NCBI RefSeq assembly: GCF_001424425.1
Contig: NZ_LMPT01000019.1
Span: 328,508 to 392,507 of the forward strand
Reading direction: 5' to 3'
Source: Acidovorax sp. Leaf191
Lineage (GTDB): Bacteria > Pseudomonadota > Gammaproteobacteria > Burkholderiales > Burkholderiaceae_C
DNA length: 64,000 bases
The notes under the pieces were generated by a model that ran no database searches, had not been told where the DNA came from, and saw only the letters and a list, made by a program, of their open reading frames with translations. The position numbers were made by a program, and so were the translations under genes. This document shows positions 58,615 to 60,438 of the stretch, piece by piece; position 1 is the stretch's first letter, and each line of letters opens with the position of its first letter.

Positions 58615-60438
58615 ATGACATTTGACGAACTGAACCTGGCTCCTGCCATCCTGAAGGCCGTGCACGAAACGGGCTACGAAACCCCCACGCCCATTCAGGC
58701 CCAGGCCATCCCCGCCGTGCTCGCAGGCCACGACCTGCTGGCCGGCGCGCAGACCGGCACCGGCAAGACTGCTGCGTTCACCCTGCCCCTGCTGCACCGC
58801 CTCTCGCAAGGTGCTGCGCCCAAAAACAAGTTCGGCGGCAAGGGCATCCGCGCCCTGGTGCTGACGCCCACCCGCGAGCTCGCCGCCCAGGTGGAAGAGT
58901 CCGTGCGCGAATACGGCAAGTACCTCGACATCAACTCCACCGTCGTCTTCGGCGGCGTGGGCATGAACCCGCAGATCGACCGCATCAAGCGCGGCGTGGA
59001 CATCCTGGTGGCCACGCCCGGCCGCCTGCTGGACCTGCAGCAACAGGGCTTCCTGGACCTGTCGACCGTGCAGGTGCTGGTGCTCGACGAAGCCGACCGC
59101 ATGCTGGACATGGGATTCATCCACGACGTGAAGAAGGTGCTGGCGCTGGTGCCGCGCGACAAGCAGAGCCTGCTGTTCTCGGCCACCTTCAGCGACGAGA
59201 TCCGGGACCTGGCCAATACCCTGCTCAAGAACCCCCAGAGCATCCAGGTCACCCCGAGCAACACCACGGTGCAGCGCATCACGCAGGTGATCCACCCCGT
59301 GGGCCGCGGCAAGAAAAAGCAGGTGTTGCTGCACATCATCCAGCAGCACAACTGGAGCCAGGTGCTGGTGTTCACCCGCACCAAGTTCGGCGCCAACAAC
59401 GTGGCCGAGTTCCTGACCAAGAACGGCGTGAACGCCATGGCGCTGCACGGCAACAAGAGCCAGAGCGCCCGCACGCAGGCCCTGGCCGGCTTCAAGAGCG
59501 GTGACATCCGTGCCCTGGTGGCCACCGACATCGCCGCGCGCGGCATCGACATCGACGAGCTGCCGCACGTCGTGAACTACGAAATCCCGAACGTCTCGGA
59601 AGACTACGTCCACCGCATCGGCCGCACGGGCCGCGCCGGCAACAGCGGTGAAGCCGTGAGCCTGGTCTGCATGGACGAAGAAGGCTTCATGATGGACATC
59701 GAGCGCTTCACCAAGCAGCAGATTCCCGTGCAGGTCATCGAAGGCTTCGGCCCCGACGCCGGTGAAAAGGCCGAGCCCATCGCCATGGGCCGCCAGACCA
59801 TCTGGGGCGGCGCAGGCAAGCCCCCGAGCCGTGACGTGATGCAGGCTGCCGCCAAGGCCGCCCGCAGCGAAATGATGGAACGCATCCGCACCAACAAGGC
59901 CGGCCAGGGTGCTGGCGGCGGTGGTGGTGGTGGCGGCGGCGATCGCGGCCCCCGCCCTGCGGGTGGCGGCAACGGCGGCGGCCGTGGTGGCCGCGCTGGC
60001 GGCGGCGCAAGTGCCGGCGCCGGCGGTGGTGGCGGCAACAACGGCCCGCGTGGCGGCCGTGCAGGTGGTGGTGGCGGTGGCGGAGCACGCGCTGGCGGCC
60101 AGGCACCTGCACGCGGCCGCTCCGGCGGTGGTGGTGGCGGCTACGGCGGTGGCGGTGCGCCCCGCTACGACGACTCGCAACCTCCCCGCCCTGACGCCCA
60201 CCTGGGCACGCATTCGGGCCATAGCAACCCGGGGCATCGCGCTTCCGGCCATGGCGCGGGCGGCCAGCCCGACCCGATGCGCACCAGCGTGGACAGCATG
60301 GGCGGCGGCCGCCGTGGCGGCGGTTATCGTGGTGGCAACGGTGGAGGAGGCGGCTATGGCGGAGGCGCGGGTGGCGGTGGTGGCCGGGGCAACGGGCCTC
60401 GTGGGCCAGGCGGTCCTCGCGGATCTTTTAACCGCTGA
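58615..60438 (+). CDS. rhlE: DEAD-box RNA helicase RhlE-like with glycine-rich tail
   Basis: 607 residues. The helicase core (about 1-375) has the Q motif with upstream F ([20 protein letters not shown]), Walker A AQTGTGKT (45-52), PTRELA, TPGR, DEAD (158-161), SAT (189-191), ARGIDI and HRIGRTGR. It then has a long basic and very Gly-rich RGG-like tail (about 435-607) for RNA binding. I start at MTFDELNL, the usual family start; no clear Shine-Dalgarno. Codons of the tail overlap the next gene by 83 bases in another frame. Helps remodel RNA, ribosome assembly and decay. Confidence 0.95.

Follow-up and report, generated by a model that had tools for sequence, protein, structure and literature searches.

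In the window, by which we mean the whole stretch of 64,000 nucleotides analyzed here (source genome, 5.87 Mb), the end of an rhlE-type helicase gene and the beginning of a short-chain dehydrogenase gene, here called ox, lie on the same strand in different frames and have 83 nt in common, which raises the question of whether these bases serve two proteins or whether one of the two readings is an artefact. When 338 genomes were surveyed, not one of the 715 co-directional overlaps longer than 60 bp was judged real, and it was proposed to flag such overlaps as errors; the longest real case, holD-rimI, measured up to 56 bp (all according to the available part of PMC2478687). On the strength of the sequence comparisons described below, we consider it very probable that the rhlE-ox overlap is genuine and old and involves two protein genes on one strand; the dual coding is well supported by the comparison of genomes, and both products are predicted proteins.

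The two genes and their shared bases

The helicase product contains the Pfam domains DEAD (2.6e-49, 167.6 bits) and Helicase_C (1.1e-29, 103.3 bits), and because both clear their cut-offs we class it as a DEAD-box RNA helicase. Among the NCBIfam models listed, RhlE (NF007882) matched best with 623.7 bits; because this score falls below the curated cut-off of 743, the product is not assigned to the RhlE equivalog and the gene is referred to as rhlE-type. Antisense to rhlE lies a 572-aa open frame (window 58534-60252, - strand), which is taken as a by-product of high G+C.

For ox, a sequence search retrieved PA4017 (2a35) with an E-value of 2.6e-28 over residues 7-220 and TIP30/HTATIP2 (2fmu, 2bka) as further solved relatives, and a fold search with the predicted ox model (mean pLDDT 92, pTM 0.89) again placed PA4017 and TIP30/HTATIP2 entries at the top (2a35, E 3.1e-17). 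ox thus resembles solved members of the TIP30/PA4017-like group over most of its length. No curated family model scored above its cut-off with ox (Pfam HIM1, 22.6 bits against 28.7; NCBIfam, no match), and the best matches among named genomes are from Acidovorax. We take Y136-N-R-V-K140 to be the YxxxK motif of short-chain dehydrogenases, and this motif combined with an N-terminal GxxGxxG is presumably what characterizes the TIP30/PA4017-like members; ox has both, and both are invariant (Table 1). Based on sequence and predicted fold, ox is a TIP30/PA4017-like dehydrogenase and a putative cofactor binder. The next gene (window 61066-62289, + strand) encodes an endonuclease/exonuclease/phosphatase family protein (Pfam, 7.1e-13) and likely starts at ATG 61108.

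Table 1. Features of the rhlE-ox junction, with position in the window, strand and basis
rhlE-type DEAD-box RNA helicase gene, 607 aa	58615..60438	+	translation; Pfam, NCBIfam
Gly/Arg-rich C-terminal helicase tail (start approximate)	59902..60435	+	sequence
GGAGGAGG, Shine-Dalgarno-like site of ox inside rhlE	60343..60350	+	GGAGG in 30/30 distinct genus copies
ox start ATG, from RhlE Tyr-Gly codons TAT GGC	60356..60358	+	30/30 distinct genus copies
83-nt overlap, constrained in both frames	60356..60438	+	codon-position comparisons, stop-place counts
ox, TIP30/PA4017-like short-chain dehydrogenase gene, 231 aa	60356..61051	+	PDB 2a35 by sequence and fold
Dinucleotide-binding loop codons G11-A-T-G-L-V-G17 of ox	60386..60406	+	G11, G14, G17 invariant in 60 aligned sequences
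rhlE stop codon (TGA)	60436..60438	+	53 nt into ox from the loop's first Gly codon, counted to its last base
Y136-N-R-V-K140 of ox	60761..60775	+	Y136, K140 invariant in 60 aligned sequences

The original prediction, made from this DNA alone, held that one run of 83 bases encodes the Gly/Arg tail of RhlE in one frame and the nucleotide-binding loop of ox in another, and its coordinates proved exact: the overlap extends from the ox ATG to the last base of the rhlE stop codon and encodes ox residues 1-27. In the ox model, the first strand (beta1) spans residues 5-10 and the first helix residues 15-26 (pLDDT means of 87, 95 and 85 over residues 1-30), and beta1, Gly loop and helix A are all predicted to fall within the overlap. 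The accompanying claim that two conserved domains overlap holds in part, as both sides are conserved but the RhlE side is a Gly/Arg-rich tail and not a folded domain. In this register, codon position 3 of ox, its wobble base, is the first base of RhlE codons, and each RhlE wobble base is a middle base of ox. The two readings are compatible because the GGN-GGN runs of RhlE, read one frame over, give the Val and Ala of beta1 in ox, while the loop and helix of ox, read in the RhlE frame, give Gly, Arg, Pro, Asn and Ser; that GGN runs can satisfy both frames, as had been proposed, is borne out by the comparison of genomes. For the RhlE tail to contain a Phe, two neighboring ox codons must fit, the first with T as its last base and the second starting with TT or TC.

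Conservation of the junction and the start of ox

We scored the arrangement in two partly redundant collections of loci, some genomes being common to both. In the first (117 loci, of which 13 without the ox motif by the search pattern were dropped), ox overlapped an upstream rhlE in 53 of the 104 scorable loci, followed rhlE without overlap in 21, and had no rhlE upstream in the stretch covered in 30. Among the 53 overlapping loci, 51 share one stop place for rhlE, which is 53 nt into ox when counted from the loop's first Gly codon; across all 53, the trinucleotide at this place was TGA in 32, TAA in 17, TAG in three and another in one; the two exceptions, L129 (+23) and L152 (+50), are possibly separate or altered overlaps. 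In the second collection (80 loci, five without the ox motif by pattern dropped), 33 of 75 loci had the overlap at +53, nine had ox behind rhlE without overlap, and 33 had no rhlE in the stretch. Named genera with the overlap are Acidovorax, Rhodoferax, Curvibacter, Polaromonas, Ramlibacter, and Caenimonas (all given as Comamonadaceae). Reading non-overlapping ox genes in the RhlE frame yields strings rich in Arg, Ala, and Pro, and a stop at the +53 place was found in only one of the 21 tandem loci (L028) and one of the 30 others (L042, a member of the genus of the source strain, hereafter the genus, whose rhlE lies on another contig). In two loci (L012 in G070 and L146 in G154), the ox match contains one internal TGA.

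Both proteins have relatives beyond the overlap, and the overlap itself is conserved in orthologs, yet with a tandem arrangement in a fifth of the scorable loci of the first collection. Relatives in which the oxidoreductase starts elsewhere, which had been named in advance as speaking against the overlap, do occur (21/104 and 9/75 non-overlapping loci); the overlap in the window stands because none of the 30 distinct genus copies lacks the ATG, the GGAGG, or the loop. Because start and stop are kept across genus copies and the stop across genera, the locus does not fall under the misannotated overlaps of categories i and iii as these appear in the available part of PMC2478687.

The start signals are themselves linked to ox. 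In each of the 30 distinct genus copies, an ATG lies 21-36 nt ahead of the loop and is preceded by GGAGG. The last Tyr codon of RhlE, which supplies this ATG, is TAT in 29/29 cases with ox and in 6/12 without (Fisher p 2e-4), and GGAGG precedes this Tyr in 29/29 with ox and in 2/12 without (Fisher p 6e-8); both sites are silent for RhlE. Moreover, of the 133 Gly codons within 18 nt ahead of the ATG, 26% are GGA, compared to 2.7% of the 714 further up the tail. The comparison thus supports the proposed Shine-Dalgarno site inside the helicase gene, a feature that goes with the presence of ox. We also considered that ox begins further downstream and that the overlap is an annotation effect (category i), which is the commonest cause of long co-directional overlaps in the survey (409/715, in the available part of PMC2478687) and which could make use of GTG codons in the ox frame downstream of the ATG. 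A later start, however, would remove beta1 and the loop, both invariant or almost invariant across 60 sequences and part of a confidently predicted fold, and it would leave aside that ATG and GGAGG are tied to ox; we regard a misplaced start as very unlikely.

In other genera the start is less clear, and in several there is no ATG near the loop. In L201, L203, L205, L208, L209, L178, and L021, the closest (or sole) ATG of ox is found 87-114 nt ahead of the loop and often begins the sequence MDNP or MDSP, and in L015, L017, L020, L027, and L031 the distance is 141-144 nt; judging from these positions, the overlap in relatives with a distant ATG may be 140-197 nt long. Genera without a near ATG would be in line with ox being made as an RhlE-ox fusion by programmed frameshifting and not from its own start, as would the ox frame, which in some species has no stop for a long way upstream (in the window, for 160 codons above the ATG). 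This reading is extremely improbable, given that an ox-frame stop lies at most 111 nt from the loop in 13 of the 30 distinct genus copies and that ATG and GGAGG are found in all 30.

Within the region 58300-61200, a promoter scan found no sigma-70-type promoter, and a terminator scan found one terminator-like site, on the other strand, compared to 1.9 expected. We suggest that rhlE and ox share one mRNA and that ribosomes would start ox at a GGAGG and ATG of its own within rhlE, while those translating RhlE pass in the other frame, because a ribosome that had reached the RhlE stop would have to move back ~80 nt to restart at ox, which is unlikely. Passing RhlE ribosomes should hinder initiation at ox and, therefore, we speculate that the overlap may tune ox against RhlE.

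Selection in the two frames

Selection was assessed from mean pairwise variation per site, by codon position, in place of dN/dS. In the genus overlap (23 distinct segments), variation was 0.055 at sites that are position 1 in ox and 2 in RhlE, 0.099 at sites that are position 2 in ox and 3 in RhlE, and 0.122 at sites that are position 3 in ox and 1 in RhlE. The corresponding values for codon positions 1, 2, and 3 were 0.10, 0.07, and 0.44 in ox downstream of the overlap and 0.017, 0.010, and 0.246 in the RhlE core (34 genus loci each, repeats kept in). Neither frame, thus, has the usual free third position in the genus overlap. In 46 segments from other genera, the values were 0.182, 0.145, and 0.390 in the same order as for the genus overlap, and there the ox third positions look freer and the constraint from the RhlE side looks weaker.

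Codon choice in ox is shifted as well: for Leu, CTG accounts for 0.10 within the genus overlap vs 0.70 downstream, and CTT and TTA together for 0.36 vs 0.06. The agreement of the two readings exceeds chance. In a recoding simulation (300 rounds of random synonymous recoding of the 23 distinct genus segments, kinship ignored), recoding ox gave a mean RhlE-frame Gly content of 0.31 compared to the observed 0.47 and a column conservation of 0.56 compared to 0.91, and recoding RhlE never regained the GxxGxxG that is observed in 23/23 segments; the stop count of this simulation is circular because the segments had been selected by their stop. Comparing positions with one another inside the same genomes gives stronger evidence than the simulations.

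Additional evidence comes from members of the genus without ox. ox was matched in 33 of 47 genus genomes, in G202 by an N-terminal remnant only, and a full ox is missing in 15 of the 47; the ox of G216 was not included. The rhlE end was readable in 12 of these 15 genomes (in G200, G205, and G231, which were left out, rhlE is cut short or was not found). All 12 have kept a Gly/Arg tail ending in RG(G)[SP]FxR, three of them with small indels (L096, L097, and L104). Without these three, the nine gap-free genomes varied in the overlap region by 0.160 at RhlE position 2, 0.479 at position 3, and 0.206 at position 1. The ratio of overlap to core variation at RhlE third positions was 0.39 with ox and 2.10 without, a difference reached in 0 of 5000 label shuffles (which ignore kinship), and ox-less pairs varied more in every bin of equal core divergence. 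Compared with their nearest ox-bearing relatives, ox-less genomes differ in the RhlE reading at 1-6 of 21 residues and in the ox frame at 7-15 of 22, whereas the 30 ox-bearing loci differ from their own nearest by a mean of 1.3 RhlE and 1.5 ox-frame residues; some ox-less genomes are further off, the core distance to the nearest being 17 bases on average for ox-bearing loci and 17-46 for ox-less ones. The clearest knock-out, L103, has one RhlE difference and 14 ox-frame differences. L098-L100 have a decaying ox start with GAAGLAG for GATGLVG, and in L104 rhlE is directly followed by the counterpart of the window's next gene after ox (86% identity over 344 residues). Where ox is absent, RhlE varies freely at its third positions and the ox frame degenerates.

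These data bear on the two readings in which a single frame is selected. If ox alone were selected and the RhlE end were a passive, frameshifted read-out of ox DNA, it would be understandable that natural read-outs of ox in the RhlE frame are Arg/Pro-rich and seldom broken, but not that ox varies so little at third positions in the overlap (0.12 vs 0.44), that ox codon choice has moved towards rare codons there, or that the 12 ox-less genomes retain the tail; this explanation is accordingly given very little credence. If, conversely, RhlE alone were selected and ox were unexpressed or decaying, the absence of a full ox from 15/47 genus genomes would fit, as ox is dispensable there, but the variation of ox downstream of the overlap has the pattern of a maintained gene and RhlE third positions are frozen only when ox is present, making this the least credible of the explanations considered. 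It had been proposed to check whether both termini are conserved, and the codon-position variation indeed shows both frames to be constrained. Judged by codon position and not by dN/dS, comparison among relatives shows that the 83-nt overlap is held by purifying selection in two frames.

Origin of the overlap and relation to known systems

The loop of ox is homologous whether or not the gene overlaps rhlE, and we therefore suggest that rhlE was extended into ox. The overlap would have arisen at an early stage of Comamonadaceae through loss of the rhlE stop, which let rhlE read on into the ox gene already behind it; several later losses of ox would have left a tail that was still selected for in RhlE. 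In Roseateles and Piscinibacter (given as Sphaerotilaceae), rhlE and ox form a tandem with no shared bases, and on the midpoint-rooted RhlE tree these genera branch outside the overlapping group. Extension into a downstream gene is also suggested to be the commoner direction of overlap origin in the available part of PMC3887535. A single origin is not proven, as the trees do not show it: the overlap label needs eight changes on the ox tree and 25 on the RhlE tree, at least eight of the latter being forced by well-supported branches. The same dual coding could have had another history, with several independent overlaps or a rhlE-ox junction spread by recombination. The scatter of the overlap on both trees and the different stop places in L129 and L152 would fit such a history, while the identical stop place in 51/53 loci is most simply inherited and losses of ox are frequent (on a short RhlE DNA tree, seven changes of ox presence in the genus, bootstrap 6-8, of which two are forced by well-supported branches); we consider this alternative possible but the less favored account.

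Returning to extension of rhlE into ox, loci such as L273, L276, L280, and L282 have overlap-like RhlE ends with no ox beside rhlE and no Rossmann trace, so that the tail need not be born from ox DNA; old losses, convergence, and recombination are candidate explanations for these ends. A Gly/Arg-rich RhlE end with [FY]xR is also present in relatives without ox beside rhlE. It is conceivable, although we hold it only tentatively, that the RhlE C-terminal motif (Gly/Arg-rich with an [FY]xR end) and the ox loop, each conserved separately, were merged, with RhlE rebuilding its C-terminus from Rossmann codons. If so, the compatibility, one frame apart, of GGN-rich disordered tails with a beta-strand/Gly-loop/helix unit would be a general property of the code and would offer a repeatable route for overprinting Rossmann folds.

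Two further scenarios were considered. We rejected the idea that the ox N-terminus was made anew from RhlE DNA, as overlapping (L178 or L205) and non-overlapping (L215) ox genes have long identical stretches in common. That Ramlibacter-like genomes left the overlap by duplicating the shared segment was unsupported, as the RhlE tails of L013 and L213-L215 have no Rossmann trace in the ox frame. In these four non-overlapping pairs, the RhlE end GGNPxRNYGR resembles the overlapping GPGNPARTFGR of sister genomes.

In the literature searched, which did not extend to the supplement of PMC2478687, we found no report of the rhlE-ox overlap. Set beside that survey's judgement on overlaps longer than 60 bp, the rhlE-ox pair has an 83-nt overlap that is kept over several genera and has a cofactor-binding motif in the shared bases. 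Because loss of one partner has turned some congeners into natural knock-outs, the selection acting on one frame can be told apart from that on the other, and the cost, origin, and escape of dual coding thereby become testable in a bacterium. The available part of PMC8665328 notes some evidence that the critical domains of one product are paired with parts of its partner that are under less constraint, a pattern into which a Rossmann core in ox over a Gly/Arg tail in RhlE would fit.

Among known systems, PA4017 (2a35) and TIP30/HTATIP2 (2bka, 2fmu) are relatives of ox in sequence and fold. At the level of the overlap, holD-rimI of Enterobacteria is, like rhlE-ox, co-directional and in different frames with DNA and protein conserved across genera, but at 32 bp in E. 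(up to 56 bp) it is shorter than the 83 nt of rhlE-ox, which include the predicted cofactor loop of the second protein (PMC2478687, available part). Thermus rnpA-rpmH is, like rhlE-ox, a case of bacterial same-strand dual coding with one GGAGG near the start; there, however, rpmH is fully nested and the two starts lie a nucleotide apart, whereas rhlE and ox are arranged tail to head with an internal start (PMC9841429, as far as its available part describes the system).
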